Of a stretch of DNA of 64,000 nucleotides, positions 9,285 through 64,000 are shown piece by piece. The stretch comes from Telopea speciosissima (Eukaryota > Streptophyta > Magnoliopsida > Proteales > Proteaceae). A program made the translations under genes and the position numbers. The DNA lies in the NCBI RefSeq assembly GCF_018873765.1, contig NC_057923.1:57592593-57656592 (forward strand), in the 5' to 3' direction. Every line of letters starts with the position of its first letter. The stretch's first letter is position 1. The notes beneath the pieces were generated by a model. That model saw only the letters and a program-made list of their open reading frames with translations, was not told where the DNA came from and did not search any database.

Positions 9285-10490
9285 ATGAGATTATACTTGG
9301 GGTCAAGCTTCTCGATAATCCAGGCTTCAATTCAGCTGCTTCGTCGGCCAAATACAACAACATTTGGTTTACTCTGTGGAAGAACTTCTCAGTTCAGATG
9401 GGCTGGCAATTATTCATCTCGTTTCTGTTTTCTTCAAATATCATCTCTTAGATTCAATTCAAGCGCCGCAAACGAACCAGCTCTAACTGTATATTACCTT
9501 ATAAACTCATGTGGGTTGTCCCCAGAATCAGCTCTCAGAGCCTCTAAACACATTGCTCTCAAGACCACAGCCAAAGCAGATTCTGTCCTTGACCTCTTCA
9601 AGAACTATGCATTCACGCAAGCCCAAATCTCCGATATCATTACCTTCAACCCAAATGTACTCAGAATCGATCCTGACAAAATACTGAAACCCAAAATCGA
9701 ACTACTGTGTAATATGGGGATATCAGGCCCCAACCTCGCAAAGATCCTTTCCAGATACTCCAACTTCTTGACAGCGAATTTAGAAAGAGAACTCATCCCT
9801 TCATTGGAATTCCTCAGGAGTTTCATCCACACGGATGAAAGGGTCGCTATCGCTCTGAGTCGTATGACCTGGACCACCCGGCTTCCTGAAAGAATGACGC
9901 CCAATATTGAGATCTTGCGAGATCATGGTGTAACAGAGTCCAACATTTCGAGGTTAATGTTCCTTCATCCTCGACTAATGATTGGGAAATCTGAATGGTT
10001 TAAGGGGGTGGTTTTGAGAGCCAAGGAAATGGGTTTGGATCCTTCGACTACCGTTTTCATAAATGGTTTCCGGGTACTATCTGGGATGAGGAAGCCTGCA
10101 TGGGAAGGAAAGTTGGCTGTTTTTAGTAGTTTTGGATGGCCGGTAGACGATTATCTTTGGTTGTTCCGGAAGCAACCCACTGTTTTTGGACTTTCAGAGA
10201 AGAGAATCAGGGCAGGATTGGATTTCTTCATGAACAAATTGAATTGGACAATTGCTGATATCAGGAAGTATCATAGCATATTACAATATAGCATGGAGAA
10301 GAGAATATTTCCAAGGTTTTCTGTTTTTCAAGTTCTGCTCGCGAAGGGTCTAATGGAAAATAATAGTATCGGCCCCGCCATGAGATTGACTGAGGATAAG
10401 TTCCTGAATAAGTATGTGTTCAGGTATCTAGATGAACAACCCCATCTGTTGAAATTGTATCAAAGTAAGATAGGTATTCTTGAATCATAA
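9285..10490 (+). CDS. mTERF-family protein, gene 1 of the array
   Basis: Intron-less gene of 401 residues starting at an ATG. Residues 1-60 are rich in Ser, Arg and aromatic residues and lack acidic ones, as expected for a mitochondrial transit peptide, ending around SSLRFNSS. From about residue 66 (ALTVYYLINSCGLSPESAL) to about 370 the protein has the helical mTERF-repeat pattern with recurrent P.(I/L)L spacing, for example DPDKILKPKIELL and HGVTESNISRLMFLHP. The family acts in organelle transcription, RNA splicing or ribosome assembly by binding nucleic acid; the target here is unknown. It is the most divergent member with gene 2, and its 3' flank (GACTTGTAGAATGTT) resembles that of the others, supporting a common tandem origin. 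It is closest to the single-exon mTERF proteins that also form clusters in other plants. Confidence 0.93.
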   Translation: MRLYLGSSFSIIQASIQLLRRPNTTTFGLLCGRTSQFRWAGNYSSRFCFLQISSLRFNSSAANEPALTVYYLINSCGLSPESALRASKHIALKTTAKADSVLDLFKNYAFTQAQISDIITFNPNVLRIDPDKILKPKIELLCNMGISGPNLAKILSRYSNFLTANLERELIPSLEFLRSFIHTDERVAIALSRMTWTTRLPERMTPNIEILRDHGVTESNISRLMFLHPRLMIGKSEWFKGVVLRAKEMGLDPSTTVFINGFRVLSGMRKPAWEGKLAVFSSFGWPVDDYLWLFRKQPTVFGLSEKRIRAGLDFFMNKLNWTIADIRKYHSILQYSMEKRIFPRFSVFQVLLAKGLMENNSIGPAMRLTEDKFLNKYVFRYLDEQPHLLKLYQSKIGILES

Positions 10491-10649
10491 GGTGACTTGT
10501 AGAATGTTTCACTTTATAATTAAGAAATTCTGTATTTTTCATACATGAGTCACTTGCTCATTTAGAATGGTGAAATCTCTCCTTTGAATCATGAATAACC
10601 ATAAAATGTACTGTAGCCCATTGGGGAATTTTTTTTTTTTTGGGGTAAT
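10491..10649. other. 3' flank of mTERF gene 1
   Basis: Begins with a GTGACTTGTAGAATGTTTCAC stretch that is recognisably shared with the 3' flanks of genes 2 and 3. It probably represents the 3' UTR; no firm polyadenylation signal can be assigned. Confidence 0.4.
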
Positions 10650-10799
10650 GTGCAAGAGAGGGTAAGGTTAGTATAAGATATTGTTGGGAATCTATCATAT
10701 GACCAATAGTCTGTTTCACTGTCAACAACTATATGATAACTTATGTGAGGAGGAGATTCTTCTGAAGCTGAGCTGACATTCCTTCTGGTGATGACAGTT

Positions 10800-10862
<63 letters not shown>

Positions 10863-18974: not shown

Positions 18975-19307
18975 ATATGATTATTTGAATCATCTATTTT
19001 TGACATGTGATCATCCAGTAGAACTCATGTAGGATCTATCCAACGAACTGCCAACACCATCGCGTTATACCTCTACTGTCTACATAGCTCAAATAATTGA
19101 CACGTGTATAGAAAGAAGCCAATGGGAACAATGAGAGAGAACCGAGCTATACTCTTTTTTTTTTTTTTGTTTTGGTAAAAGAACCGAGCTATACTCAATG
19201 GGGGAGAATTGGAGATGCGGAGGAGAAGAAAATTAAAATGGAGAGGTGGTTCTGGTTCATGCCTTTTCCAACTTCCCCAAACCTGAAGAGTCCGTGATCG
19301 GGAGAAA
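18975..19307. other. Upstream region of the LYR gene
   Basis: Short intergenic piece with a poly-T run and a duplicated GAACCGAGCTATACTC word (19141 and 19182) about 120-165 bases before the ATG. It presumably contains the promoter and leader. No motif is convincing enough to name. Confidence 0.3.
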
Positions 19308-19787
19308 ATGGCAATTAGGGCTGAGAAATGGCGAAAATTCGCTGTTCTCATGGCCGTCAACACCATCAGATGCAACCCTGCAACTCGTCGTCAGCTTCTA
19401 CACAACGGCCCAGACACATTGGAAGAGCTCTTAGAGAGGCACTTGGTGAAGAAAGACAAGAATAGCGTCGATGACGAAGAAGACGTGCTTTTAGCTCGTC
19501 GTCGCCTCACCAGCACACGAAGAGAGGCTCTTAGTCTCTACAGAGACGTCTTAAGAGCTACTCGATTCTTTGTCTGGCCTGATTCTCGTGGTGTCTTGTG
19601 GCGAGATGTTCTGAGAGAGAACGCTCGGAAGGAATTCGAAGAAGCCCGGTTTGAGAGGGACCCTGAGGTCATCACCAGATTGATTATTGCGGGTAGAGAT
19701 TCTGTTCAGTCTGCCATTGATAAGCTTGTTGAGAAGCAGAAGCAACAGGTGGAGCGCGAACGTAAAGATAGAGATCGTGGCTGGTAA
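19308..19787 (+). CDS. LYR-motif (Complex1_LYR-like) protein
   Basis: Intron-less gene of 159 residues from an ATG preceded by GAGAAA. Residues 77-79 are the LYR tripeptide within SLYRDVLRATR, and a conserved Phe follows in ARKEFEEARFERDPE (residue 110), then an amphipathic RLIIAGRDSVQSAIDKL helix. This is the three-helix LYR fold, used by small mitochondrial proteins that bind acyl-carrier protein and serve Fe-S cluster transfer or respiratory complex assembly. The N-terminal 60 residues (MAVNTIRCNPATRRQLL and an acidic linker) extend beyond the minimal LYR domain, and the C-terminus is a charged coil. Which LYR subfamily it belongs to cannot be settled by reading. It lies on the same strand as the mTERF genes but shows no shared promoter; it is probably a resident single-copy gene around which the cluster grew. 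Confidence 0.88.
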   Translation: MAIRAEKWRKFAVLMAVNTIRCNPATRRQLLHNGPDTLEELLERHLVKKDKNSVDDEEDVLLARRRLTSTRREALSLYRDVLRATRFFVWPDSRGVLWRDVLRENARKEFEEARFERDPEVITRLIIAGRDSVQSAIDKLVEKQKQQVERERKDRDRGW

Positions 19788-25119: not shown

Positions 25120-26265
25120 ATGTTTCGTTCATTTTGCAAGAAACTACTGCAGATCATAGTGGGCAGTGATTCATCAACCAATATCCCTATTCTTCAAGAC
25201 CCATCTCTAAGATCCATCTCAAATGCCAAAATCCAACCTTCTGGATTGTCCCCAGATTTATCTCTTGAAGCCTTTCAAAAGGCTTTTATCAGAACCAACA
25301 GCACCAGCAGATCTGAGACAGTCCTTGCACTCTTTGACACCTATGAATTGCCCAAACCCCAAATCTCAAAGCTCATTACCATGTACCCATCACTGCTCTT
25401 TGCTGATCCCGACAATACCTTACAACCCAAATTAGAATTTTTCTCTAAAATGGGGATTTCAGGTCCCAATCTTGCAAATATCCTCTGCAGGGACCCAAGC
25501 ATTTTGGATTGCAGCTTGGAGGACCATGTTATCCCTTTGGTCAACTTCCTTAAGAATTTCATTCACAGCGATGAAGATATGGCTGTCATTCTGGGTCGCT
25601 TGAGATTGCTGAAGGGGGTCCCTGAGTTAATGGGTCCAAATATTGAGATCTTGCGCGAACAGGGCTTACCTGATTCCATCCTTTCAGAGCTAATATTACG
25701 ACGACCTCAGTTGTTAACTTGGAAAGCTAGCCGGTTTAAGGAGAAGCTACTGCAAACCAAGCAAATGGGTTTTGACACCTCAAGTTCCCTGTTTGTTCAG
25801 GGATTCCAAGCATTTGCACAGATGAATAAGCCTACCTGGGAAGCGAAATTGGAGGTTTTCAGGAGTTTTGGATGGTTGGAGAATGAGATTCTCTCTCTGT
25901 TCAGAAAGCAACCTGGTTATTTGACTCGTTCTGAGAATATTATCAGGACCCATTTGAATTTCTATATGAACAAATTGGATTGGACAGCTGTTGATATTGT
26001 CGAGAATTCAGAACTTTTACACCAAAGTTTGGAGAAGAAAGTTATTCCAAAGTGTCTTGTTCTTGGAGTTCTTTCCTCCAAGGGTCTGTTCGAGAAAGAA
26101 AGATTGGGCAAGGTACTGAAGATGAATGAAGTTAAGTTCTTGAAGAAATTTGTAATGAAGTACGAGAAGGAACTACCTGAACTGTTGAAATCGTACAAAA
26201 GTATGACAGAATCGCCCAGACCAGAAACTGGGTCTGAGGAAGGCAGCAGGGATGATAACTTGTAG
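25120..26265 (+). CDS. mTERF-family protein, gene 2 of the array
   Basis: Intron-less, 381 residues from the ATG at 25120 (MFRSFCKKLL), chosen because the paralogues start with the comparable MFSFCSRK; an in-frame TTG four codons upstream is not a credible start. The first 45 residues are basic and Ser-rich (mitochondrial targeting likely). Residues about 75-345 show mTERF repeats (for example DPDNTLQPKLEFFSKMGISGPNLANIL and EQGLPDSILSELILRRPQLL). It lacks the TVDYLINRCGL element of the other copies, having an altered segment (SPDLSLEAFQKAF) instead. The C-terminus carries an extra acidic/polar tail (ESPRPETGSEEGSRDDNL) absent from the other copies. Together with gene 1 it is an older branch of the cluster. 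Confidence 0.92.
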   Translation: MFRSFCKKLLQIIVGSDSSTNIPILQDPSLRSISNAKIQPSGLSPDLSLEAFQKAFIRTNSTSRSETVLALFDTYELPKPQISKLITMYPSLLFADPDNTLQPKLEFFSKMGISGPNLANILCRDPSILDCSLEDHVIPLVNFLKNFIHSDEDMAVILGRLRLLKGVPELMGPNIEILREQGLPDSILSELILRRPQLLTWKASRFKEKLLQTKQMGFDTSSSLFVQGFQAFAQMNKPTWEAKLEVFRSFGWLENEILSLFRKQPGYLTRSENIIRTHLNFYMNKLDWTAVDIVENSELLHQSLEKKVIPKCLVLGVLSSKGLFEKERLGKVLKMNEVKFLKKFVMKYEKELPELLKSYKSMTESPRPETGSEEGSRDDNL

Positions 26266-32304: not shown

Positions 32305-32766
32305 AAATGATGTAGTTAGAGAAATTCTTAAAAATTCAACCCTCAAGTTGATAATTGCAAGAAGTTCCATTTGCGCCTTTCCTAGGTGTTAGTTTCCAAC
32401 TTTTTTTGGGTTCTTCCAGGACTAATGGTTGAAATTGGATATGGAAAATTAGGCTCTAATTTTTGGGAGAATTCTGCCAATGATCGAATTTTTCTTTTGG
32501 AAATTTCTGAAAGATACACTAGAGCCTAGAGGTTAGAAGACATCCGATAATATTTAAGCTCCCTTTCTGTAGTAACAAGGAAGAAACAGAATGTTTATCT
32601 TTTTTTATTTTTTTGAGGGGGTGGATCCCCCCGCTTACTCCAGGAATCTGGATTAATTTCTTTATCAGGGTTGAAGTCAAATCTTAAACCTCAAAACTGT
32701 GTTGGATCTTACTTCTTGGGTATTAAGCTTTTGGGTTTTCAATATATGAATATTCCTTTGCTGCCT
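32305..32766. repeat. Head of the duplication unit of mTERF gene 3
   Basis: GATGTAGTTAGAGAAATTC onward is homologous to 44515-44985, where it adjoins the tail of the gene 3 unit. It marks the left limit of the DNA duplicated together with genes 3 and 4. Confidence 0.7.
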
Positions 32767-35053: not shown

Positions 35054-35095
<42 letters not shown>

Positions 35096-35330: not shown

Positions 35331-36226
35331 GAAAAATTTTCTTTTCTATCCCAACTCAGATTAAGTTTTCCTTTGCCAACGGAAAAGGATGAATTCCTTT
35401 CCTTCATCACTAGTGATGTATCCTTGTGACAGGACTCCTTGTCTTATCATGAACTCTTTTACTCTACTAGACACGTCAAATTACCCTTTCTCATGCTAAT
35501 CAAAGGGTTATATCTATATGGGGAGGAGAAATTGAAATATGAAATCTCTATAATTCTCAAATCATAGTGGCTGCAGCATCAGCTGAATTAAACCAAACAT
35601 CTTAAACGGTTAAAGAGAAAATAGGTTAAGGGAAAATAAAGCATGTGGTGCCCTTGTGCAAATTTCAATATACCTCTCTCACATAATAAATAATAAGGCC
35701 CACACTGACACTCTCTTCGATTCTAACAATGTGAATCCCATATAGATTTATACTATTCTCCAAACCTCATTGGTACAACATGCAAGTATCGAGATCAATT
35801 ACCTGCAAAACTGGTACATATCATCCGAAATGGGCGATACAATTCCGTCATATCAATACCTTAAACCCTGGTTTCAAGAAATCCAAAATGAAACTAGATC
35901 GAAAACGGTTCGATTCGATCTAGATTTTTTTTATTCGATTTTAATCAGATGAACTGAAAAAAAAAACAAAAAATTGACACCCTTAGACCGGCAAGATAAA
36001 GTTTTAAAAAATCTGATGGAAATGAAAAGGCATCTATGAGTATGAAATTGAACACATGATTAATCCACATCATTCCCTACATATCACTATAGTTGAAATT
36101 GTTCCATGCACTTTTATCTTTAGATCTTCGTGAACCATCCACCTTATTATCTCTCTCAATCCCCCTCCCCTTCCCATCCAATTTTTTTTGTTGGAGCAAA
36201 ATTGGGTAGAACCAGAAGGAACATTT
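35331..36226. other. Upstream region of mTERF gene 3
   Basis: Homologous to 46369-46900 and 54220-54680 in the units of genes 4 and 5. 35880-35985 is a remnant of the GACACCC-terminated hAT-like element that is fuller at 47615-47960. No gene. Confidence 0.45.
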
Positions 36227-36343
36227 AGACCGGATTTGATTACGTTTAACTTTGAGCAGGTTCCGGTACAAAATTCAAATCCTTAGGTTTCAGCTTCACG
36301 CCTGCTCATGTCACTGAGAAGACGAGAGGAGATTGGGAAGTCC
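36227..36343 (+). promoter_or_regulatory. Conserved proximal 5' block of mTERF gene 3
   Basis: AGACCGGATTTGATTACGTTT, then a GAGCAGGTTCCGGT block and CTCACTGAGAAGACGAGAG, is retained before genes 3, 4 and 5 while the sequence further upstream is full of insertions. This conservation suggests promoter or leader function. It could also reflect mere recency of duplication. Confidence 0.45.
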
Positions 36344-36403
36344 ATGCTTGCCTTGCTTGGAACCTGTTCGATTAAAAACCCTTGTAAGTCATTCTACTCT
36401 TAA
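36344..36403 (+). other. Upstream open reading frame of mTERF gene 3 (19 codons)
   Basis: ATG at 36344 opens a frame reading MLALLGTCSIKNPCKSFYS and stops 10 bases before the main ATG. The equivalent frame is 25 codons and overlaps the main ATG in gene 4, is fused in frame in gene 5, and is 12 codons in gene 6. It could lower translation of the main frame. Confidence 0.5.
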
Positions 36404-36413
36404 CACTCCCAGA

Positions 36414-37535
36414 ATGTTTAGCTTCTGTAGCAGAAAACTTAATAATATGAAGTTGTTTGGTAATTTATCAACATTTCTGCTTCCCAATCGAAACTCATCT
36501 CTTAGGTTTAGCTCAAATGCCACAGAACAACCGTCTCTCACGGTTGATTATCTCATAAACAGATGTGGGTTAACCGAAGAATCTGCTTTTAAAGTCTCCC
36601 AAAGGTTTAACATGAAATCCACCACAAAAGCAGACTCGGTTCTCGCCCTGCTCAACAGTTATGGATTAACCCAACCCTATATCTCAAAGATAATCAGCAA
36701 GGACCCAAAAGTACTCTCTGCCGATCCTAAGAAAATTTTGGAACCCAAGATTGAATTTTTCTCTAATATGGGGATTTCAGGCCCCGACCTTGGGAAGATC
36801 TTCTGCAATGACTCAAGCTTGCTGGCGAGTGTCAGTTTGGAAAACCAAATTGTTCCTTCCATTGAATTCCTTAAGAGTTTCCTTCACGATAATAAGAATG
36901 TTGTTGTGGTCTTGAGTCGGTTAAGGTGGATTAAGGGGATTCAAAGAGTAATGAAACCTAATATTGAGATTTTGCGAAATGAGGGGGTGCCAGAATCTAG
37001 AATTTTGAAACTAATTATGTTAGCGCCTCAATTACTTACTTGGAAACAACCTCAGTTTAATGAGGTTGTCTCGCAAGCCAAGGAAATGGGGTTTGACCCC
37101 TCGAGTTTGATGTTTATCCATGCCGTCCGCACACTGGCACAGATGAAGAAGACTATTTTGGAAGCGAAATGGGAGATTTTTAGGAGTTTTGGATGGTCGG
37201 AGGATGAGATTCTCTGCATGTTTAGAAAACAACCCCAGTGTTTGACTCGCTCAGAGAAAATGCTTAGAATGCGATTGGATTTCTTCATGAACAAACAGAG
37301 TTTGACAGCAGCAGAAGTTGCCCGTATGCCAGTCATTTTGCTTCTTAGCATGGAGAAGAGAACTGTTCCAAGGTATTCTGTTATTCAAGTTCTTCTCTCC
37401 CGGGGTTTGATGAAGAAACAAAGTATTAGTACTGCACTGATATTGAATGAAGATAAGTTCTTGGAAAAATTTGTTAGGAAGTATCAGCAGGAGCTACCTC
37501 AGCTGTTAAAGGAGTACAAACGTAACATGGGATGA
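36414..37535 (+). CDS. mTERF-family protein, gene 3 of the array
   Basis: Intron-less, 373 residues from the ATG at 36414 (MFSFCSRK), the start shared by genes 4, 5 and 6; a longer frame exists only from a non-ATG codon at 36333. Residues 1-36 are basic and Ser-rich and end in SSLRFSSNA, a probable mitochondrial transit peptide. TVDYLINRCGL (43-53) and mTERF repeats follow to about residue 345: DPKKILEPKIEFFSNMGISG, PNIEILRNEGVPE, FRSFGWSEDEILCMFRKQP. The C-terminus is a basic helix (KFVRKYQQELPQLLKEYKRN). The role is expected in organelle gene expression; the target is unknown. About 90% identical to gene 4 by eye. The 3' flank contains a Tourist-like MITE and then a LINE split by a copia insertion. 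Confidence 0.94.
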   Translation: MFSFCSRKLNNMKLFGNLSTFLLPNRNSSLRFSSNATEQPSLTVDYLINRCGLTEESAFKVSQRFNMKSTTKADSVLALLNSYGLTQPYISKIISKDPKVLSADPKKILEPKIEFFSNMGISGPDLGKIFCNDSSLLASVSLENQIVPSIEFLKSFLHDNKNVVVVLSRLRWIKGIQRVMKPNIEILRNEGVPESRILKLIMLAPQLLTWKQPQFNEVVSQAKEMGFDPSSLMFIHAVRTLAQMKKTILEAKWEIFRSFGWSEDEILCMFRKQPQCLTRSEKMLRMRLDFFMNKQSLTAAEVARMPVILLLSMEKRTVPRYSVIQVLLSRGLMKKQSISTALILNEDKFLEKFVRKYQQELPQLLKEYKRNMG

Positions 37536-37689
37536 CTTGCAAAATGGGATTAGTGATTTGCAGAATTTGTCCTTACAATTTTAACAGGTATTTGCACTTT
37601 TATACATGATGATACTTGGCCATGTAAATGTCTAGGTTATTTACTTGCTTTCTTTGTCTACAGGTAAGATTCTCTTCAATTGATAGTTA

Positions 37690-37903
37690 GGCTCCATTTG
37701 TTTCCGTGTAAACTTTACATGGGATATGTAGAAGAGATACACCGACCACAATTACTTATGTTAGATCTTTGTTGAGAATGATACGTCAGCCCTGTAAAAG
37801 TTTTCCCCATGAAAATTTTACAAACTTAAAAATGAACAATGGAAAATTTGATGTTACAGTATATTTTGTTTTTCCGGCTATTTGATGATGAAACAAACGG
37901 AGC
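37690..37903. mobile_element. Tourist-like MITE behind gene 3
   Basis: Starts GGCTCCATTTGTTTCC, ends GATGAAACAAACGGAGCT, and is flanked by TTA on each side. Orthologous copies at 50381-50625 (behind gene 4) and 56721-56949 (behind gene 5) show that it entered before the duplications. Confidence 0.7.
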
Positions 37904-39420: not shown

Positions 39421-39770
39421 ACTTTTGTGAAACGACCAAACTAGGCTCTGGGAGACTGTTTCAAACCATATAAGGAGTTCTTCAGTTTACAAACAAAGCC
39501 AGATTCCTCCTGAGCAACAAACCCGGGAGGTTACTCCATGTACACCTCCTGTAGGTCACCATGAAGGAACGCATTCTTCACATCTCATTGGTGCAATGGC
39601 CACTGATGGGTGGTTGTAAGAGAGATCAAGACCCGAACAGAAGTATGTTTAGCAACGGGAGAAAAGGTATCGGAATAATCCACCCCATAAACCTGTGCAT
39701 AGCCCTTGGCCACCAGGAGGGCCTTTAGGCAAGCAAGAGAGCCATCTACATGAACCTTGACAACATAAAC

Positions 39771-41070: not shown

Positions 41071-41331
41071 GAGAACAAAAACTAGGATAAAGTTTCTGCA
41101 AACTCTGTAAAGAGGGATGTCCCAACCGACAATGTATCTGGTGAGGGGATAATGTACTCGAACAGGCAATAGAAGGCGTGTCCTCAAAAAGATATAGCCC
41201 CCCCGATACCCTACCTCTACCAATCGCCTTCTTCGTCTGGAGATCCTGAAATACACAACCATCAGGGAAAAAGGTTATAGAACAGTTATAAGTCTTGGTG
41301 ATGGCTAACAGACAAAAGGTTAAATGGGAAT

Positions 41332-43510: not shown

Positions 43511-44029
43511 CACTTCTCCTATGGTTATTTTAGGCCTGCCCCTGGCTCTTTTAGTATCTTCAATCTGAATCAAATCACTCCTCTGTACTGGGGCATCCCT
43601 AGGCCTTCGTTGGACATGGCCGTACCACCTCAAACGTCTCCCACATAGCTTATCATGAATCAGATCTACACCTAAATCAGCTTTAATGTGGTCATTCTTT
43701 ACTTTGTCCTACCTAGTCTTGCCACACACCCATCTCAACATCTTCATCTCTGCTACATTTAATTTATCTTTATGATGCTTCTTAACTGCCCAACATTTTG
43801 CACCATACATCATAGCTGGATGTATGACAGTCCTATAAAATTTACCTTTTAGCTCTAAAGGGATACGTCAATTACACAGCACTCCGGAAGCACCTCTCCA
43901 CTTCATCTTTATTTATTGTTGAGCCCAGATTATCTAAAGTAATCATTTTGAGGAATCACACTCTCATCAATATTCACCACCTCATTAACCGTCCCAGTAT
44001 GGCTAAGGTTACTTACCATATATTCCATT
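43511..44029 (-). mobile_element. RTE-type LINE, ORF2 C-terminal part (right of the copia insertion)
   Basis: On the minus strand this continues the LINE of 37975-38118: AMMYG, VKKHHKDKLNVAEM-like and MLRWVCGKT-like segments typical of the RTE ORF2 C-terminus. It is 5'-truncated at about 44029, where the right target duplication (GGAACATGGTCTATTGG) begins. The same LINE at the same position lies behind gene 4 (50696-51373). Confidence 0.8.
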
Positions 44030-44514
44030 GGAACATGGTCTATTGGAAATGGGAAAATTCTCAATTTATAGGCATATTCACGGTACAAATGATGATCAGT
44101 CCAAATGAACACAACAACATGGGATTTAGTAGTAGATTCTATATTTGACTCCTCTAGTGGAAGTAAGTTCTCAGTTGACATTCAACCTGAGTATGGCTTA
44201 CCAATTGTTGGGAGACGAGCTATTCTAATAGTTACTACTTACTCAATTCTCATAATGGCAAGTCAATTATTTTGTGTTAGATCTTTGTTGAGAATAGTAG
44301 TATCAGGTAATGAAGAAGTGATATTTTGTGTGTTGTTTGATTATTTTGTGATTGGCAATCATATCATGCAAGTTAATAATTTTTATTGAGAACAAGTGAG
44401 TTTGCTTCTTAGTATCTCAAAAATCTTGCATATGTTTTCTCAGATACACATTGCTTGGACTTGTCCATTTTTCATGAGCTTCACAGATGATATTGGACAA
44501 ATTTGTTAATATAT
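44030..44514. repeat. Tail of the duplication unit of gene 3
   Basis: Homologous to 51374-52160 and 57000-57965 (AGTGGAAGTAAGTTCTCA, CAACCTGAGTATGGCTTACC, CACATTGCTTGGACTTGTCC). It breaks off at about 44515 in TTAATATATATGA and changes without a gap into the head of the next unit. Confidence 0.75.
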
Positions 44515-48594: not shown

Positions 48595-48672
48595 ATGCTT
48601 GCCTTGCTTGGAACCTGTTCGATTAAAAACCCTTGTAAGTCATTCTACTCTCAATACTCCCAGAATGTTTAG
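48595..48672 (+). other. Upstream open reading frame of gene 4 (25 codons, overlapping)
   Basis: Same start as in gene 3, but it lacks the early stop and runs eight bases past the main ATG at 48665 in another frame (ends SFYSQYSQNV). Overlapping upstream frames usually depress translation of the main frame more than non-overlapping ones. Confidence 0.5.
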
Positions 48673-49786
48673 CTTCTGTAGCAGAAAACTTCATAATATG
48701 AAGTTGTTTGGTAATTTATCAACATTTCTCCTTCCCTTTCGAAACTCATCTCTTAGGTTTAGTTCAAATGCCACAGAACAACCGTCTCTCACGGTAGATT
48801 ACCTCATAAAAAGATGTGGATTAACCGAAGAACCTGCTCTTAAAGCCTCCCAAAGGTTTAGTATCAAATCCACCACAAAAGCAGACTCGGTTCTCGCCCT
48901 CCTCAACAGCTATGGATTAACCAAACTCTGTATCTCAGAGCTAATCAGCAAGGACCCAAAGGTACTCTCTACCGATCCTAAGAAAATTTTGGAACCCAAG
49001 ATTGAATTTTTCTCTAATATGGGGATTTCAGCCCCCGACCTTGGGAAGATCTTCTGCAATGACTCAAGCTTGCTGGCGAGTGTCAGTTTGGAAAACCAAA
49101 TTGTTCCTTCCATTGAATTCCTTAAGAGTTTCCTTCACGATAATAAGCATGTTGCTGTGGTCTTGAGTCGGTTGAGGTGGATTAAGGGGATTCAAAGAGT
49201 AATGAAACCTAATATTGAGATTTTGCGAGATCAGGGGGTGCCAGAATCTGGAATTTTGAAACTAATTATGTTAGGGCCTCAATTACTTACTAGGAAACAA
49301 CCAAAGTTTAATGAGGTTGTCTTGCAAGCCAAGGAAATGGGGTTTGACCCCTCGAGTTTGATGTTTATCCATGCTTTCCGCACGCTGTCACAGATGAATA
49401 AGACTACTTTGGAAGCGAAATGGGAGGTTTTTAGAAGTTTTGGATGGTCGGAGGATGAGATTCTCTGCATGTTTAGAAAACAACCCCTTTGTTTGACTCG
49501 CTCAGAGAAAATGCTTAGAATGCGATTGGATTTCTTCATGAACAAACAGAGTTTGACAGCAGCGGAAGTTGCCCATATACCATTCATTTTACTTCTTAGC
49601 ATGGAGAAGAGAACTGGTCCAAGGTATTCTGTTATTCAAGTTCTTCTCTCCCGGGGTTTGATGAAGAAACGAAGTATTAGTACTGCACTGATGTTGAATG
49701 AAAATAAGTTCTTGGAAAACTTTGTTAGGAAGTATCATCAGGAGCTACCTCAGCTGTTAAAGGAGTACAAACGTAACATGGGATGA
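48665..49786 (+). CDS. mTERF-family protein, gene 4 of the array
   Basis: Intron-less, 373 residues, same length and start as gene 3 (MFSFCSRKLHNMK). Transit-peptide-like residues 1-36, then mTERF repeats to about residue 345 and the basic C-terminal helix. By eye it differs from gene 3 in about 39 amino-acid-changing codons but only about 15 silent codons. A stretch at about 48974-49147 is almost identical to gene 3 (one base different). Replacements include Trp to Arg at residue 210 in LLTRKQP and Val to Gly at 318. The frame is intact. Upstream lie a 17-bp-flanked retroelement and a hAT-like MITE; behind it is an extra mTERF 3' end. Confidence 0.94.
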   Translation: MFSFCSRKLHNMKLFGNLSTFLLPFRNSSLRFSSNATEQPSLTVDYLIKRCGLTEEPALKASQRFSIKSTTKADSVLALLNSYGLTKLCISELISKDPKVLSTDPKKILEPKIEFFSNMGISAPDLGKIFCNDSSLLASVSLENQIVPSIEFLKSFLHDNKHVAVVLSRLRWIKGIQRVMKPNIEILRDQGVPESGILKLIMLGPQLLTRKQPKFNEVVLQAKEMGFDPSSLMFIHAFRTLSQMNKTTLEAKWEVFRSFGWSEDEILCMFRKQPLCLTRSEKMLRMRLDFFMNKQSLTAAEVAHIPFILLLSMEKRTGPRYSVIQVLLSRGLMKKRSISTALMLNENKFLENFVRKYHQELPQLLKEYKRNMG

Positions 49787-50080
49787 CTTGCAAAATGGGA
49801 TTGGTGATTTGCAGAATTTGACCTTACAATTTGCCAGGTATTTGCATTTTTGTACTTGATGATATTTGGCCATGTAAATTTCTAGGTTATTTACTTGCTT
49901 TCTTTGTCTACAAGTAACATTCTCTTCAATTGTTATTAAGGCTCCATTTGTTTCCGTGTAAAATTTTACATGTAAAACTTTCATTTAGAAAACTTTATAT
50001 GGGATAGTGTAGAAGAGATACACTGGCCACTGTTACTTGTGTTAGATTTTTGTTTAGAATGATACATCAGGCCCGTAAAG
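49787..50080. other. 3' flank of gene 4, interrupted
   Basis: Same 3' flank as gene 3, including the left part of the Tourist-like MITE (from 49940). It stops at about 50078 in AAAGTT and jumps to mTERF coding sequence. Confidence 0.7.
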
Positions 50081-50226
50081 TTATTCTCTCCCTGGGGTTT
50101 GATGAAGAAACAAAGTATTAGTACTGTACTGATATTGAATGAAGATAAGTTCTTGGAAAAATTTGTTAGGAAGTATCATCGGGAGCTACCTCAGCTGTTA
50201 AAGGAGTACAAACTTAACATGGGATG
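50081..50226 (+). pseudogene. Stray 3' end of an mTERF gene
   Basis: Encodes only the last 46-48 residues of an mTERF copy (LMKKQSISTVLILNEDKF, then a segment ending LLKEYKLNMG and a stop). It has no start and no repeats. It repeats the segment at about 49641-49786 with a period of 441 bp. At diagnostic residues (KQS, LIL, EDKF, LEKF) it matches genes 3 and 5 rather than gene 4 (KRS, LML, ENKF, LENF). It is followed by a full 3' flank. Confidence 0.85.
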
Positions 50227-50380
50227 ACTTGCGAAATGGGATTGGTGATTTGCAGAATTTGACCCTGCAATTTTGACAGGTATTTGCATTTTTGTACTTG
50301 ATATATTTGGCCATGTAAATGTCTAGGTTATTTACTTGCTTTCTTTGTCTACAAGTAACATTCTCTTCAATTGTTATTAA

Positions 50381-50625
50381 GGCTCCATTTGTTTCTGTGT
50401 AAAATTTTACATGTAAAACTTTCATTTAGAAAACTTTATATGGGATAGTGTAGAAGAGATACACCGGCCACTGTTACTTGTGTTAGATCTTTGTTGAGAA
50501 TGATACACCAGTGCTGTAAAGTTTTCCCCATGAAAATTTTATAAACTTAAAAACGAGCAATGGAAAATTTGATTTTACGGTAAACTTTTCTTTTCCGGCT
50601 ATTTGATGATGAAACAGACAGAGCC
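50381..50625. mobile_element. Tourist-like MITE behind gene 4
   Basis: GGCTCCATTTGTTTC to GACAGAGCC, flanked by TTAA-like sites; ortholog of 37690-37903 and 56721-56949. A truncated second copy begins at 49940. Confidence 0.7.
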
Positions 50626-50695: not shown

Positions 50696-51373
50696 CAACA
50701 ACAATATAACCTTATTCCAAATAAATTGGGTCGGCCAAATGGATCCTTTCTCTCCAGTCAGCTCTATTTGAAGTCATACATGATTAGAGGCCTAAGCTAT
50801 GCATGTCTTTCACTTCTCTTATGGTTACTTTAGGCATGCCCCTGGCTCTTTTAGTACCTTCAATCCGAATCAAATTGCTCCTCCGTATTGGGGCGTCCCT
50901 AGGCCTTCGTTGGAAATGGCCGTACCACCTCAAGCATCTCTCATGTTGCTTATCATGAATCAGAGCTACACCAAAATCAGCTTTAATAAGGTCATTCCTT
51001 ACTTTGTCCTTCCTAGTCTTGCCACACATCAATCTCAAGATCATGATCTCCTCTACTCTTAGTTTATATATTTGACACTTCTTAACTGTCCAACATTCCA
51101 CACCATACATCATAGCTGGACCTATGATAGTCCTATATATTTTCCTTTGAGCTTTAAAGGGATACGCCAATCACACAGCATTCCGGACGCACCTCTCCAC
51201 TTCATCCATTCTATTTTAATCCTTTGAGCAACATCATCATCTATATCCCCTTCATTTTTTACTGTTGAGCCCAGATATCTAAAGTAATCACTTTAGGAAT
51301 TTCCCTCTCATCTATATTCACCACCTCATTAACCATCACAGTGTGGCCAAGGTTACATACCATGTATTCCAGT
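50696..51373 (-). mobile_element. 5'-truncated RTE-type LINE behind gene 4
   Basis: Minus-strand ORF2 C-terminus: a YLGSTVKNEGDIDDDVAQRI-type region (about 51215-51285), AMMYGVECWTVKK (about 51085-51125), MCGKTRKDKVRND and RCLRWYGHFQRRPRDAP. It then passes to the CCTTATTCCAAATAAATTGGG terminus and a CAACAACAA tail complement. Target duplication GGAACATGGTCCATTGG at 50669-50695 and an approximate match at 51374-51400. The gene 5 unit is empty at this site (about 56990-57020). The frame is damaged. Confidence 0.85.
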
Positions 51374-52374
51374 GGATCATGGTCTACTGGAAATGGGAGA
51401 ATTCTCAATTTATAGGAATATTAACGGTACAAATGATGATCAGTCCAAAATGAACATAACAATGTGTGAGTTAGTGAGTAGATTCTCCATTTGACTCCTC
51501 TAGTGGAAGTAAGTTCTCAATTGACATTCAACCTGAGTATGGCTTACCAATTGTTGGGAGAAGAGTTATTCTAAAAGTTACTACTTTCACAATTCTCATA
51601 TTGGCAGGTCAGTTACTTGGGCTAGATCTTGGTTGAGAATGATAGTATCAGGTAGCGAAGAAGTGATATTTTGTGTGTTGTTCGATTATTTTATGAGTGG
51701 CAATCATATCATGCAAGTCAATGATTTTTATTGAGACCAGGTGGGTTTATTTTCTTGCAACCTAGTGTTTCATGTTATGGGGTAGTTATATGGACGAGTG
51801 AGTTATCTGTTATTGAGATCTTTGAAGACATTAAAACAGCTGTAGAATATAAGCCACAGCCTTCGAGGACTTACTCGTCCTTATTAAGGCATTTAAAATT
51901 GTTCATTGCAAAATGTAGTCTTAGAATTTGTATTAGCAGCAGTAGAAGTGTTAAGCTTGAGTGAACTTCAATAGTTACTTAGAAAGACAATTTTTTGTTT
52001 TTTGTAGTACAACCTACTAAAATTCTGATTTTTTTTCAAAAAAGTTAAAAGAAAATTCTTAAACACATTCCATATGGTTTGTCAGATACACATTGCTTGG
52101 ACTTGTCCATTTTTCATGAGCTTCACAGATGATATTGGACAAATTTGTTAATATATATGAGATAGAATGATGGTATAAATGGATGTGTCATATTTATATA
52201 TGTTTCCATGATCCACCATTACTAGATAATTATCCATTTCTATTTTCTATAGAACTCATGACCTTAAGTGAGATGATTTCATTACTACTTTTACATTATT
52301 TAAAAAAGAAAGACGTTGACGAACTCTTTGTATAGAATAGAGTGAATTTTATAATGGTCAGCAAGGAATGTGAA
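51374..52374. repeat. Tail of the gene 4 unit
   Basis: Homologous to 57000-58190 behind gene 5 (for example GAGATCTTTGAAGACATTAAAACAGC, CACATTGCTTGG) and partly to 44030-44514 behind gene 3. No gene. Confidence 0.7.
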
Positions 52375-53060
52375 GGATCTTTGTTTCCTGACAAAGTGGA
52401 TACTCACCCCCAAAAGATTTCAGAATAGATCCAACCAATCTCCAAGGCAAGAATCCTGATGAGGTGAGCATGAATGTCAAGCACCAAGCTCAGTGCAGGG
52501 GATCTATTCAAATGCAGGTGGCTTTGAAAAATCTTCCTGGCATGTTATTATGTATTTGCTTCATTATGTCTTGAAATAATCCCCATGTACTTATTTGCAA
52601 ACCAGTTATCACATATACGTTACTTAATTGATTCAAATTTGCTATTTAATTTGCATAGTTTTCTGAACTCTATCCATGAACAGAATCAATCACATTGCAG
52701 GTCTAAATTACTTCCTCCCTTTCTTCCTTCAACCCCCCCCCCCCCACCCCCCCACCCCAAAAAATGAAGAAAAGGTTCTTCCAGGGAAGGGATGATTGGG
52801 AGGCAGATATGTTTAGTGGTTATTTGTTAACACTGTGATACTCTATTCATTCATGTTTTTGTTGTTTGCAACCATAATGATTCATGTTGCCAAATTGATT
52901 TAGATCTCTGAAGAACTGGATTTATCAAATACGAATACAGGGCAGTAACCTGGTACGAGTCCCATGTTCACAGGGTCATGGGAGACTTCAGTTTGCCTGG
53001 GGATCTTTAATGCTTTCAGGGACTCATGTTTAGGAAATCTCATAGTACTATAGATTTTCT
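52375..53060. repeat. Duplicated non-mTERF segment, copy behind gene 4
   Basis: Collinear with 58195-58870: CAAAAGATTTCAGAATAGATCC, GGCAAGAATCCTGATGAGGTGAGC, GGGTCATGGGAGACTTCAG. Contains G-then-GTGAGC donor-like and TGCAG acceptor-like words, as if pieces of a spliced host gene were carried along. No frame is long enough to name one. Confidence 0.6.
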
Positions 53061-55383: not shown

Positions 55384-56562
55384 ATGCTTGGAATCTGTTC
55401 GATTCCGAACCCTTGTAAGTTTTTCTACTCTAACACTCGCAGAATGTTTAGCTTCTGTAGCAGAAAAATTCTTCATATAAAGTGGTGCGGTGATTCATCA
55501 ACAAATCTCTTTTTTATTCGAAACTCATCTCTTAGATTTAGTTCGAATGCCGCAGAAATACCTTCTCTTACGGTAGATTACCTTATAAACAGATGTGGGT
55601 TAAACCAAGAATCTGCTCTTAAAGCCTCCCAAAGGTTTAATATCAAATCCACCACAAAAGCAGACGCAGTTCTTGCCATTCTCAATAGCTATGGATTACT
55701 CAAACCCTATATCTCAAATCTAATCAGCAAGGACCCAACAATACTCTCAGTGGATCCTAAGACAATCTTGGTCAAAATGGATTTTTTCTCTAATATGGGT
55801 ATTGCAGTCCCCGACCTTGCAAGGATGTTCTGCAGAGACCCAAGCATACTGGCGGGTGCCAGTTTGGAAAAGCAAATTGTTCCTTCCATGGACTTCCTTA
55901 AGAGTTTCGTTCACAATGATAAGAATGTTGCTGTGGCCTTGAGTCGGTTGAGGTGGATTAAGGGGATTCAAAGAGTAATGGAACCTAATATTGGGATCTT
56001 GCGAAATCACGGGGTGCCGGATTCTGGAATTTCGAAACTAATTATACGACGCCCTCAATTACTTACTTGGAAACAACCTCACTTTAATGAGGTTGTCCTG
56101 CAAACCAAGGAACTGGGGTTTGACCCTTCGAGTATGATGTTTATCCATGCCATCTGCTCGCTGTCACAGATGAATAAGACTACGTTGGAAATGAAAATGG
56201 AGGTTTTTAGGAGTTTTGGATGGTCGGAAGATGAGATTCTCTGCCTGTTCAGAAAACAACCCCATTGTTTGACTCGCTCAGAGAAAATTCTTAGGATGCG
56301 ATTGGATTACTTCATGAACAAAATGAGTTGGACTGCAGCAGAAGTTGCCAAGAACCCAGTCGTTTTGCTTCTTAGCATGGAGAAGAGAACTGTTCCAAGG
56401 TATTCTGTTATTCAAGTTCTTCTCTCCCAGGGTTTGATGAAGAAACAAAGTATTAGTACTGCGCTGATATTGAAGGAAGAACAGTTCTTGGAAAACTTTG
56501 TTAGGAAGTATCATCAGGAGCTACCTCAGCTGTTAAAGGAGTACAAACGTAACATGGAATGA
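55384..56562 (+). CDS. mTERF-family protein, gene 5 of the array
   Basis: Intron-less; 392 residues from the ATG at 55384, or 372 from the ATG at 55444 that corresponds to the start in genes 3, 4 and 6. The upstream frame of the paralogues is fused in frame here (MLGICSIPNPCKFFYSNTRR before MFSFCSRK) owing to a one-base length change in the leader, so a longer presequence is possible. Transit-peptide-like N-terminus, TVDYLINRCGLNQESAL, mTERF repeats and the usual basic C-terminus. One codon is missing in the first conserved repeat (TILVKMDFF where genes 3 and 4 have KILEPKIEFF), which alters a conserved Pro position. Otherwise intact. The 3' flank holds the Tourist-like MITE and a SINE but no LINE. 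Confidence 0.93.
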   Translation: MLGICSIPNPCKFFYSNTRRMFSFCSRKILHIKWCGDSSTNLFFIRNSSLRFSSNAAEIPSLTVDYLINRCGLNQESALKASQRFNIKSTTKADAVLAILNSYGLLKPYISNLISKDPTILSVDPKTILVKMDFFSNMGIAVPDLARMFCRDPSILAGASLEKQIVPSMDFLKSFVHNDKNVAVALSRLRWIKGIQRVMEPNIGILRNHGVPDSGISKLIIRRPQLLTWKQPHFNEVVLQTKELGFDPSSMMFIHAICSLSQMNKTTLEMKMEVFRSFGWSEDEILCLFRKQPHCLTRSEKILRMRLDYFMNKMSWTAAEVAKNPVVLLLSMEKRTVPRYSVIQVLLSQGLMKKQSISTALILKEEQFLENFVRKYHQELPQLLKEYKRNME

Positions 56563-57137: not shown

Positions 57138-57298
57138 AGGGCGGGCCTTGGTGCAACGGAAAGGTTGCTTCATTGTGACCAAGTGGTCATGGGTTCGAGT
57201 CTGGAAACAGCCTCCCTGTGAAAGTAGGGGTAAGGCTGCATACATTATGACCCTTCCCAGACCCCGTAGTGGCGAGAGCCTTGTGCACTGGGTACGCC
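57138..57298 (+). mobile_element. tRNA-derived SINE with intact target duplication
   Basis: GGGCCTTGGTGCAACGG (A box), GGTCATGGGTTCGAGTC (B box), GGAAACAGCCTC, GGGTAAGGCTGC, ending CACTGGGTACGCCC. Flanked by a 21-23 bp direct repeat with one mismatch (57117-57137 and 57301-57321, AGTGGAAGTAAG). Units 3 and 4 are empty at this point (about 44157 and 51503). Not a tRNA gene. Confidence 0.92.
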
Positions 57299-58194
57299 CT
57301 TTAGTGGAAGTAAGCTCTCAGTTGACATTCAACCTGAGTATGGCTTACCAATTGTTGGGAGAAGAGTTATTATTGAATTTACTGTTTTCTCAGTTTTCAT
57401 ATTGACAAGTCGGTTGCCTGTGTTAGATCTTTGTTGAGAATGATAGTATCAGGTGAGAGGAAGAGATATAACGTGTGTTCGATTATATTCTGATTGGCAA
57501 TCATATCATACAAGTCAACGATTTTTATTGAGACCAGGTGGGTTTGCTTCTTATTTTCTTGCAACTTAATGTTTCATGTTATGCAGTGGTTATGTGGACG
57601 AGTTAGTTATCTGTTATTGAGATCTTTGAAGACATTAAAACAGCTATAGAATATAAGCCACAGCCTTTAAGGACTTACATTTCCTTATTATGGCATTTAA
57701 AGTTGGTCATTGCAAAAGGCAGTTGACAAGTTGTATTAGAAGCAATGGAAGTGTTAAGCTTGAGTGAACTTCAATAGTTTTTTGGAAAGACAAGTTAGTA
57801 GTTTTTGTAGTACAACCTACTAAAATTCTGAAAAAGTTAAAAGAAAAATCTTAAAAACCTTGCATGACCATTTTGGGTTATGGTTTCTTAGGTAGACATT
57901 GCTTGGCCTTGTCAATTTTTCATGAGCTTCTTACATGATATTGGTCAAATTTGTTAATATATATGAGATATAATGATGGTATAAATGGATGTGTCATTTT
58001 CATGTATGTTTCCAGTATCAACCATTACTGTGAAAATTATCCATTTTTTATCTTCTCTAGAACTTATGACTTTAAGTGAGATGATTTCATCACTACTTTC
58101 ACATTATTAAAAGAAAAAGGAAAAAATAAAAAATAAAATGTTGATGAACTCTTTGTATAGAATAGAGTGAAAATTTTATAATGGTCAGCAAGGA
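57299..58194. repeat. Tail of the gene 5 unit
   Basis: Collinear with 51520-52374. No gene. Confidence 0.65.
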
Positions 58195-58975
58195 ATGTAA
58201 AGGATCTTTGTTTCCTGACAAACTGGATGCTCACCCCCAAAAGATTTCAGAATAGATCCAGACATCTCCAAGGCAAGAATCCTGATGAGGTGAGCATGAA
58301 TGTCAAGCACCAAGATGAGTGTGAGGGATCTATTCAAATGCAGATGGCTGGAAAATATCTTCCTGGCATGTTATTGTGCATTTGTTTCATTATTTCTTGA
58401 AATAATCCCCATGTTCTTCTTTGCAAACCAGTTATCGCATCTATGTTACTTAGTTGGTTCAAATCCGCTAGTTAATTTGCATAGTTTCCTGAACTCTATC
58501 CATGGACAGAATCTCATTGCAGTTCTCAACTACTTCCTTCACCGCCCCCCCCCCCCCCCCCAACCCAAAAAATATATATATTAAATAAAAGGTTCTTCCA
58601 GGGAAGGGGTGATAGGGAAGCAGATATGTCTAGTGGTTATTTGTTATCAGTGTGATACTATTCATTCAGTTTTTTGCTGTTTGCAACCATAATGATTCAT
58701 GTTGCCTAATTGATTCAGATCTCTGAAGAACGTGATTTATCAAAAATAAATAAGAGTGGCAGAGACCTGGTACGAGTCCCATTTTCACAGGGTCATGGGA
58801 GACTTCAGTTTGCCTGGGGATCTTGAATGCTGTCAGGGACTCATGATTAGGAAATCTCATAGTACTGTGGTTCTAAATCATGTTATGAGGGATGGTTGCA
58901 GACAAGCAGGGGTAAATGGTCATTTGTTAGCTGTTAATGACAAGTTTTCCCAGGTATATAGTATGAAGCCATAAA
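58195..58975. repeat. Duplicated non-mTERF segment, copy behind gene 5
   Basis: Collinear with 52375-53060, with a poly-C run at about 58545-58560. The frame at 58756-58974 crosses the GGGTCATGGGAGACTTCAG block but is not conserved in the other copy, so I do not call it a gene. Confidence 0.6.
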
Positions 58976-61224: not shown

Positions 61225-61867
61225 ATTCGATGTGATACTTGGAGTAAGACCTAAACCATGCATGTCTTTCCTCACCACTTCTCCTAAGATCATTTTAGGT
61301 CTGTCCTTAACTCTTTTAGAATCTTCAATTAGAATCCCATCAAATCTTCTAACCTGAAGCATTCAAAGGCCTCCATTGAACATGGTCATGTCACCTCAGT
61401 CGACTTTCTTGAAGGTATCTTGAATCGGGGCTACTCCCATGCCAACTCTAATAACGTCATTCCTTATATTATCTTTCCTGGTTTTGCCACTCATCCATCT
61501 CAACATCTTCACCCCTTCTCCTAAGGTCATTTTAGGTCTGCTCTTAACTCTTTGAGAATCTTCAATTAGAATCGTGTCTAATTTTCCAACCTAAAGCATT
61601 CAAAGGCCTTTGATGAACATGGCCATGTCACCTCAATCAACTTTCATGAAGTTTATTTTGAATCAGGGCTACTCCCATGCCAACTCTAATAACTTCATTC
61701 CTTATTTTATCCTTCGTGGTTTTGCCACTCATCCATCTCAACATCCTCATTTCTACTAAATGTAGTTTATTTATATGACACTTCTTGATGGCCCAAAACT
61801 CCACGCCATACATCATAGCCGGTCTAATGATTGTCCTATGAAATTTTTTTGTAAAGTTTTTTTTCAC
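61225..61867 (-). mobile_element. 5'-truncated RTE-type LINE with an internal 237-bp tandem repeat
   Basis: Minus-strand ORF2 C-terminus: FHRTIIRPAMMYGVEFWAIKK, MRMLRWMSGKTTKDKIRNE, then KDMHGLGLTPS (about 61240-61275). The segment 61275-61511 is repeated at 61512-61750 with period 237 (CTTCTCCTAAG.TCATTTTAGG twice). The frame is damaged. Confidence 0.75.
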
Positions 61868-63080
61868 ACATTTATTGTATTTTGTTCAATATTTCACAAA
61901 AAAATTTTTCATTTTTTTCTCCCATTTTGATTTTTAAAATTTCTGCTTTTTATTTTGAAGTTTTACCTTTTTATTATTTTTTCGACTGATACAAATGAGG
62001 TTTTCAAAAATTGCAAGTTATTCCAGACCGTATGGGCTAATTCATATCGGTATTTGCGGAATCCAATACTGATTACTAAAACCATAAAACACACATTTAA
62101 AAAGTTTCTTTCTCATTCTGTTTTACTTCAATATATTGACTATAGTAAATATACAAACAAAAAATTTAATTCCTTTAATTTCCCTCACTTCTAACTAAAT
62201 TGTGCTAAAGTGAAACAACATTTGTGTACTATTTGTGGGATTCATTGGATCATGATTTGAGGAATCGGTATCGGATGATCAAATACCAATTTTATCAAAA
62301 TTTTATTATATTTTTAAAATTAATATCACTTGTCATTATCTTATGGGTCGTACACTCGTACCACCCATCCTAATTGATATCACGATACCGATTACTAAAT
62401 CCATGCATTGGAATCGTTTGCTTCAACACCTCTCATGCATGGTTTGAGGGAGAAATGATACAGATTCTTGTTTGGTCCCATATCGATGGATCAATTCAGA
62501 TAAAAAGCAAAATGGTAAAAATAATTGAGCAAATCCGGACTTCTTATTGTTCCACACTTTCACTCATAGTTGGAAAATCAGGTTTTTTAATTCGACTTGT
62601 TAAATTTAATAATTAGATGAGTCACATTTTGTTTTCTTATTTTTTAATTTAATAAATATGTACAAATTAGTAAAAAATAAATAAAAAACTAAAAATATAT
62701 GAAAAAACCAGAAAAAATCAAGGAAATATATATCAATGTATTTTGAGTTTGTACCATTGAACAAGAGAAGTTGATGATTTCTTACTATTTTAGAATACAA
62801 AATGTACTATTTTACCAGTGAATCGATTTTATGTGTTTTTAAAATACGATTGAATTCGCTAAATCTATCATGCCTTGGATAAAATTTTTGAATATTATTT
62901 GACTTCAAAGATTTATAATCGAGTCTAGTCATTTTTTACCTTAAATTAAAAATTAATCTACACGACTCTTGATTAGATTTTTCAAAGAATTTTACTTGAC
63001 TCGGGCGATTCGACCTAGTCAAAACCCGTTTCCAACTATGCTCTCACTTATAGAAGTACCTATGACGCACTAACAATTGA
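61868..63080. other. Gene-free, very AT-rich stretch before gene 6
   Basis: Poly-T-rich; GGAATCGGTATCGGATGATC-type dispersed repeat words at about 62040-62500. The conserved AGACCGG promoter block of genes 3-5 is not found. Homology to the other leaders begins only at about 63081. Confidence 0.35.
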
Positions 63081-63200
63081 ATCCTTGGTTTTCAGCTTCA
63101 GCCCTGAACATCCCATTGAGAAGACGAGAGGAGATTGGGAAGTCCATGCCTGGAACCTGTTCGATCCCGAACTCTTGTAAGTGATTAACCCTCTCCCAGA
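63081..63200 (+). promoter_or_regulatory. Leader of mTERF gene 6
   Basis: Shares CCTTGGTTTTCAGCTTCA and GAGAAGACGAGAGGAGATTGG with genes 3-5, but lacks their GGATTTGATTACG block. A 12-codon upstream frame (MPGTCSIPNSCK) occupies 63146-63184. Confidence 0.45.
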
Positions 63201-64000
63201 ATGTTTAGCTTCTGTAGCAGAAAGTTTTTTCGTATAAAGTGGTCTGGTGATTTATCAACATTTTTCCTTCTCATTCGAAACTCATCTCTTAGGTTTAGTT
63301 CAAATGCCACAGAACAGTCGTCTCTCACGGTAGATTACCTCATAAAAAGATGTGGGTTAACCCAAGAATCTGCTCTTAAAGCATCCCAAAGGATTAATAT
63401 CAAATCCACCACAAATGCAGATTGGGTTCGCGCCCTCCTAGACAGCTATGGATTACCTAAATCCTGTATCTCGAAGCTAATCAGCAACCACCCAGCAGTA
63501 CTCTCTGGGAATCCTAAGAAAATCTTGGAACCCAAGATTGAATATTTCTTAAATATGGGGATGACAGTTCCCGACCTTGCAAAGATTTTCTCTAAGGACC
63601 CAAGCATACTAGCGGGTGCCAGTTTGACAAACCAAATTATTCCTTCCATGGAGTTCCTTAGGAGTTTCCTTAACGATGGTAAGAATATTGCTTTGGTCTT
63701 GAGTCGGTTGAGGTGGAATACGGGGTTTCAAAGACTAATGGAACCCAATATTGAGTTGTTGCGAAACCAGGGGGTGCCGGAACCTGTGATTTCAAAACTA
63801 GTTATAATATGCCCTCAAGCACTTACTTTGAAACAACCTCGGTTTAATGAGGCTGTCCTGAAAGCCAAGGAAATGGGTTTTGACCCCTCAAGTTTGATGT
63901 TTGTCCATGCCATACGCACGCTGTCACAGATGAATACTACGTTGGAAACAAAACTGGAGGTTTTTAGGAATTTTGGATGGTCTGAGGATGAGATTCTGTG
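63201..64000 (+). CDS. mTERF-family protein, gene 6 of the array (cut by the window edge)
   Basis: Open from the ATG at 63201 (MFSFCSRKFFRIK) to the end of the window, 266 codons without a stop. It corresponds to residues 1-267 of gene 3, so about 105 residues should lie outside. Transit-peptide-like N-terminus, TVDYLIKRCGLTQESAL, EPKIEYFLNMGMTVPDLAKIF, MEPNIELLRNQGVPE and FRNFGWSEDEIL. One codon fewer than its paralogues near the MNTTLETKLEVF segment. It is more diverged than genes 3 and 4 from one another, for example NADWVRALLDS for KADSVLALLNS. Confidence 0.9.
   Translation, partial: MFSFCSRKFFRIKWSGDLSTFFLLIRNSSLRFSSNATEQSSLTVDYLIKRCGLTQESALKASQRINIKSTTNADWVRALLDSYGLPKSCISKLISNHPAVLSGNPKKILEPKIEYFLNMGMTVPDLAKIFSKDPSILAGASLTNQIIPSMEFLRSFLNDGKNIALVLSRLRWNTGFQRLMEPNIELLRNQGVPEPVISKLVIICPQALTLKQPRFNEAVLKAKEMGFDPSSLMFVHAIRTLSQMNTTLETKLEVFRNFGWSEDEIL

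Follow-up and report, generated by a model that had tools for sequence, protein, structure and literature searches.

Tandem arrays of single-exon mTERF genes in Telopea speciosissima and the possible repeat-phased diversification of their candidate base-contacting residues

The subject of this work is a tandem array of intron-free mTERF genes in the plant Telopea speciosissima. The window, that is, the whole stretch of 64,000 nucleotides that was analysed, is C8:57592593-57656592 of a genome assembly with 823 Mb and 1287 contigs, of which C1-C11 are chromosome-size. It contains exactly six ATG-started open reading frames (ORFs) of at least 200 amino acids (aa), all intron-free and all on the + strand. 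The mTERF domain of Pfam (PF02536) was matched by all six proteins, with expect values (E) from 1.3e-19 to 2.7e-39 and scores of 70.8-135.4 bits against a curated cut-off of 23.1. The ORF list and Pfam agree with the original prediction, made from the letters of the window, that six single-exon mTERF frames lie on this strand, five of them complete and the sixth truncated by the window end. In window positions, the genes are as follows.

g1, 9285..10490, + strand: intact single-exon mTERF gene, 401 aa, divergent; its tree partner is a solo copy on C3
g2, 25120..26265, + strand: intact single-exon mTERF gene, 381 aa, divergent
g3, 36414..37535, + strand: intact mTERF gene, 373 aa, in the younger bush (g3-g11)
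g4, 48665..49786, + strand: intact mTERF gene, 373 aa, nearest relative g3 (synonymous divergence, dS, 0.074)
g5, 55384..56562, + strand: intact mTERF gene, 392 aa
g6, 63201..64000 (ORF 63201-63998 open at the window end), + strand: mTERF gene, complete in the genome with 372 aa

By a protein search of a joined 170-kb stretch, the full array comprises eleven full-length + strand units at C8:57601877-57706687 (105 kb). Five further units follow g6 to the right of the window, the last ending at C8:57706687, and no further mTERF copies were found in the 29 kb to the left of the array (which include a 100-N gap) or in the 36 kb to its right. Nine of the eleven units are intact, with frames of 372-401 codons, and two are pseudogenes: g8 carries two in-frame stops, g11 one stop together with frameshifts. 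Extension to the right of 64 kb has thus raised the predicted "at least six" copies to eleven. Each of the nine intact copies, g5 being read from its second Met, has 4-6 K/R and 0-3 D/E among its first 45 aa, a composition that fits the transit-peptide-like N-termini also predicted. The mTERF repeat register is discernible in the protein sequences of array members and, to judge from sequence, the products are probably DNA/RNA-binding proteins, putatively mitochondrial. A 286-bp mTERF fragment, on the strand opposite to the array, lies just before g7 at C8:57663982-57664267 (-).

The array is part of a genome-wide family. A search of the genome with g5 at E of 1e-10 or below, in which 105 of 204 candidates were scored, returned at least 109 matches, comprising scattered copies, fragments and two further tandem arrays. 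One sister array is on C5 at 65.53-65.81 Mb, with related copies on unplaced contigs that are perhaps extra haplotypes, and the other is at C8:4.95-5.15 Mb (the C8:4.9 array). Open frames were extracted from 47 regions (the 11 units, 3 of a block at C8:53.9 Mb described below and 33 other loci), and a tree was built from 37 sequences after ten broken, short or distant ones had been dropped. Each sister array forms its own clade (support 100/100), as does the window array together with the solo C3 copy, which pairs with g1 (both 100/99). The young bush of the window array has support 100/99, and 9 of the 34 inner branches of the tree are without resolution. In addition, g5-like fragments of 71-79% identity occur at unlinked sites such as C1:28153431, C7:58975374, C10:28085280 and C8:49174169, so that array-related pieces have spread beyond the locus.

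A block at C8:53892638-53939629 is an inverted repeat of 57.585-57.630 Mb with 95-99% identity and contains g1-g3 in order. Its g1 copy is short by one base. Its g3 copy switches, eight codons before the end, to other sequence that may be a Ty1-copia reverse transcriptase, as read from the translation. A 100-N gap is located at the window-side end of the similarity. The block was considered as an independent second g1-g3 copy and kept out of the eleven, being probably a misplaced alternative haplotype or, less likely, a true duplication.

Selection at individual sites was examined with a codon maximum-likelihood program written for this work (models M0, M1a, M2a, M7, M8a and M8), which assumes an even silent rate. 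Family A comprised g3-g7, g9 and g10 of the window array (seven of the nine intact genes), the divergent g1 and g2 being left out. Family B comprised the C5 array and its unplaced relatives in nine rows. Here, L026 was kept despite its 331-codon ORF, and the divergent L035, the less than full-length L029, L031, L034 and L037, and the near-copies L052 and L054-L057 were left out. Family C comprised seven of the eight members of the C8:4.9 array, without the short L042. Comparison of M8 with M8a gave twice the log-likelihood difference (2dlnL) as 9.7 in A (p=0.002; ratio of nonsynonymous to synonymous rates, omega, of 2.1 on 21% of sites), 26.2 in B (p=3e-7; omega 2.1 on 21% of sites) and 36.1 in C (p=2e-9; omega 4.0 on 9% of sites). 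When a separate tree was used for each third of the gene and the M8-M8a differences were summed, p was 0.025 in A, 1e-8 in B and 8e-8 in C, and the summed M8-M7 comparison gave 7e-9 in B and 1e-6 in C. Sites with omega above 1 are convincing in both sister arrays and modest in the window array.

The location of these sites was compared with the protein repeat. A search of solved structures with a profile of the six window proteins led to MTERF1 (5crj) at E 1e-6, which places it in the same family. MTERF1 is single-copy, has a known DNA target and, unlike the genes described here, forms no array. The direct-readout residues of the human protein are given as R162, R202, R251, R350 and R387 (PMC4705650). 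At an offset of 72, all five are arginines in PDB chain 5crj, and four of the five (R162, R202, R251 and R350) lie at -2, +1, +9 and +1 from the repeat proline. In the array proteins, register zero was set at the conserved repeat proline (g5 residues 118, 153, 224, 293 and 325), and the equivalents 191 and 258 were used for two proline-less repeats, 258 being placed by spacing alone.

The set {-2,+1,+9} was taken from MTERF1 at a time when the site lists were already known, and the register comparison was made among array genes alone. Under these terms, the posterior mean omega at the set exceeded the repeat mean by factors of 1.41, 1.58 and 1.59 in A, B and C, respectively, with circular-shift p values of 0.001, 0.0008 and 0.0008 (pooled 0.0002). 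With the thirds of the gene fitted apart, the ratios were 1.41, 1.64 and 1.43 (p 0.0002, 0.0005 and 0.007), and with one anchor placed two residues off, p was 0.0055, 0.0115 and 0.0035. Sites with a posterior above 0.8 fell into the set in 17 of 56 cases, the set making up 10% of registers. By fitted omega averaged over the three arrays, the top registers were +1, -1, -2 and +5, and tests of single registers found -1 and +5 enriched. The latter corresponds to MTERF1 R169, which we take to be a DNA contact and whose name is absent from the text of the contact paper. At the set, dN was 0.311 and dS 0.282 in B (omega 1.10 vs 0.65 elsewhere), and 0.258 and 0.111 in C (omega 2.32 vs 0.60 elsewhere). 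Counts of minimum events gave a ratio of replacement to silent changes of 36:4 at the set vs 131:62 elsewhere in C (p=0.005), and a replacement excess at the set was also found with the three arrays pooled (p=0.007). Relative to silent change, replacement is therefore in excess at these registers in the C8:4.9 array and in the pooled data, and not in the window array alone.

The mode and age of duplication can be read from the DNA around the genes. Identity to g5 is 47% for g1, 51% for g2 and 70-78% for g3, g4 and g6-g11; g1 and g2 are, on their sequences, the old members of the array. In a self-comparison, the bush units were found to have common flanks of about 110-200 bp upstream and about 100-900 bp downstream, with 79-92% identity including the gene. 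These and other duplicated elements of the window are listed here.

36225..37798, + strand: g3 duplicated unit, g3 with at most about 190 bp upstream and about 260 bp downstream; 83-92% identity to other bush units
43511..44403, + strand: intergenic block, recurring at 50811-51748 (83.4%); left from larger duplicated units
51497..53049, + strand: intergenic block, recurring at 57298-58866 (84.5%); left from larger duplicated units
50078..50523, + strand: partial second g4 copy, the g4 end with downstream DNA and no gene start; a 441-bp tandem duplication, 94.6%
32766-35330: intergenic tandem duplication of 1.27 kb, 98.6%; apparently younger than every full-gene duplication of the array

The common non-coding flanks and the recurring intergenic blocks indicate that the array grew by local segmental duplication on the chromosome. 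An origin of the growth from retrocopies was considered and is ruled out by the non-coding DNA common to units both upstream and downstream. Among the seven intact bush copies, g3/g4 is the youngest full-gene pair, with a dS of 0.074; in the remaining 20 of the 21 pairs dS is 0.143-0.270, and these values bear no signature of an ongoing burst. The events younger than the full-gene pairs are short only (the 441-bp and 1.27-kb duplications), and the two dead units of eleven speak for birth and death, not plain growth. Thus, a cluster of intron-less mTERF genes enlarged by duplication, as predicted, is borne out and is part of a genome-wide expansion. The wording "actively expanding" is weak and does not stand, given a bush dS of 0.07-0.27, two dead units and young duplications that are short.

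The reading that we favour, with moderate confidence, is that of plant mTERF genes in a tandem array subject to birth and death, their base-contacting residues having been retuned to changing organelle sequences. The proteins would enter mitochondria, and their concave face would wrap nucleic acid, each copy holding a somewhat different sequence preference. Unequal crossing-over would supply spare copies, the base-contacting residues of which could be retuned as organelle sequences change. The likeliest driver would be a conflict with mitochondrial genes in the fashion of pentatricopeptide repeat (PPR) restorers, a suggestion by analogy. The proposal that the cluster follows a changing organelle target holds in part: the site pattern, mainly that of the sister arrays, fits a changing nucleic-acid target; in the window array taken alone, the pattern is not separable from silent change.

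Several results weigh against retuning by selection. Gene-wide, pairwise dN/dS is below 1 in all 87 pairs (0.38-0.95, family B having ten rows in this comparison). With a separate tree per third, the M8-M7 comparison for the window array falls short of significance (p=0.07). Null simulations were confined to A. With recombination, 1 of 24 sets reached the observed 9.7 and 5 of 24 passed the nominal 5% level; the figures without recombination were 0 and 4 of 24, so that the M8-M8a test is somewhat liberal. At {-2,+1,+9}, A has dN 0.277 and dS 0.468 (omega 0.59 vs 0.62 elsewhere); here, dS is raised along with dN, and omega is therefore not above the rest. Replacement and silent events at the set vs elsewhere were 36:11 vs 135:55 in A (p=0.45) and 49.5:10.5 vs 182:59 in B (p=0.25). 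Moreover, register +9 tested singly gave no enrichment (p=0.37), the enriched register -1 is absent from the five listed MTERF1 contacts, and in the C5 array -2 is raised slightly only. Finally, when solved structures were searched with g5 alone, no MTERF was returned, the best match being an unrelated protein at E 0.019.

The alternative that survives best, and which we regard as possible though not likely, is ordinary family growth with relaxed constraint, in which exposed helix positions of spare copies drift faster and no target is tracked. The gene-wide ratios below 1, the two dead units, the fragments at unlinked sites and the silent change raised at the contact registers of the window array are all in its favour. 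So is a published case: of the 60 mTERF genes of barley, those duplicated in tandem all fall into subfamily IX, and their whole-gene Ka/Ks of 0.15-0.57 is read as purifying (PMC8319850). Whole-gene values here are likewise below 1, yet both the site models and the test of registers speak for diversifying positions. Drift of this kind fits poorly with the strong support for site classes of omega 2-4 in two of the three arrays, which holds when each third has its own tree, or with an MTERF1 register set that is raised in all three arrays and reaches omega 2.3 in the C8:4.9 array.

A bolder form of the favoured reading makes mTERF arrays, in the manner of PPR genes, a second arsenal against selfish mitochondrial genes, with base-reading residues at -2, -1, +1 and +5 diversified by selection; we offer this tentatively and consider it doubtful. 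Restorer-of-fertility-like PPR genes lie in tandem arrays and encode organelle proteins with helical repeats, whose variation is in phase with the contact positions of the repeats. The mTERF array resembles them, by inference, in its tandem layout and putatively repeat-phased variation, and differs in family and repeat. If the arsenal reading is true, these registers would define a candidate code for target recognition by plant mTERF proteins, and this outside the grasses.

Male-fertility restoration by the array is plausible by analogy. That it is a restorer locus or reservoir, with members that act like PPR restorers in silencing the mitochondrial transcripts behind male sterility, seems to us unlikely. 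Such a role predicts both arrays and diversified contact positions, and mTERF genes have been linked to restoration in barley (Rfm3; PMC7154926), rye (Rfp1; PMC8035072) and wheat (Rf9; PMC8431178). These papers describe four mTERF genes near the rye locus and two linked in barley, all of the same family as the array. However, those loci were found via male-sterility genetics, and the array is known here from its DNA alone. Also against a restorer locus, a single PPR gene was found beside the array in searches that scored 150 of 4121 and, in a second round, 59 of 1084 candidates, and it has a 95% relative on another chromosome. The idea that the site-model signal is due to gene conversion or recombination among copies and not selection is quite improbable: inner branches are partly without resolution (9/34), and one of 24 recombinant null simulations matched the window array statistic, but the sister-array signal survives a separate tree per third (p 1e-8 and 8e-8), and a repeat-phased pattern is not what conversion would lead one to expect.

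Clustered single-exon mTERF genes in plants, which the original prediction took as known, have precedents in barley subfamily IX and in Arabidopsis. Chromosome 1 of the latter carries nine tandem mTERF genes within 70 kb, some of whose products are listed as mitochondrial (PMC3471360). The present array is like that cluster in consisting of local tandem duplicates over a similar span. By the published description, it is set apart by having eleven units and, elsewhere in the same genome, two sister arrays. Expression, localisation and duplication are the subjects of the accessible part of the Arabidopsis paper, which contains no site-level selection test. Group IX of maize has been termed mitochondrial and species-specific (PMC3981765), and the expanded cereal group IX is alike by description, tandem duplication being found here as well. 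Since tandem mTERF arrays and the linkage of mTERF genes to fertility restoration have already been published, the suggestion of an undescribed system is not upheld.

What is new is the repeat-phased pattern of change; tandem mTERF arrays themselves are already known. No account of site-level positive selection in plant mTERF arrays was found in the literature searched, which covered few subscription papers. The questions at stake are which residues let plant mTERF proteins choose their targets and why the family, as PPR proteins do, repeatedly expands in arrays. If selection has marked one and the same set of registers in all three separate arrays, the arrays themselves name the residues worth swapping, and the restorer-like pattern, hitherto argued from cereals, would extend to another plant. 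If the pattern is relaxed drift, this is an ordinary duplicated family.

Other elements lie between and beside the genes. Ty1-copia remains are present between g3 and g4 at 38744-42508 (-), where pieces match RVT_2, SH3_retrovirus, Retrotran_gag_2 and Pol_BBD. An open stretch between g1 and g2, at 19287-19784 (+), contains the domain Complex1_LYR (PF05347, E 6e-11), which represents a presumably mitochondrial family. The PPR gene beside the array is an intact P-class gene of 766 aa at C8:57713826-57716126, 7 kb to the right of the last unit, and its sole close relative among the 22 matches listed is at C1:3.03 Mb. A rye-like PPR neighbourhood was considered and dropped as evidence because, with this relative on C1, the neighbour is not one of a tandem set. 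Comparison with one member of a PPR group on C11 gave 32-33% identity. At C11:52.47-52.60 Mb and C11:53.09-53.22 Mb, this group of PPR matches and a small group of mTERF matches lie about 0.5 Mb apart. This arrangement recalls the PPR/mTERF hotspot of rye.

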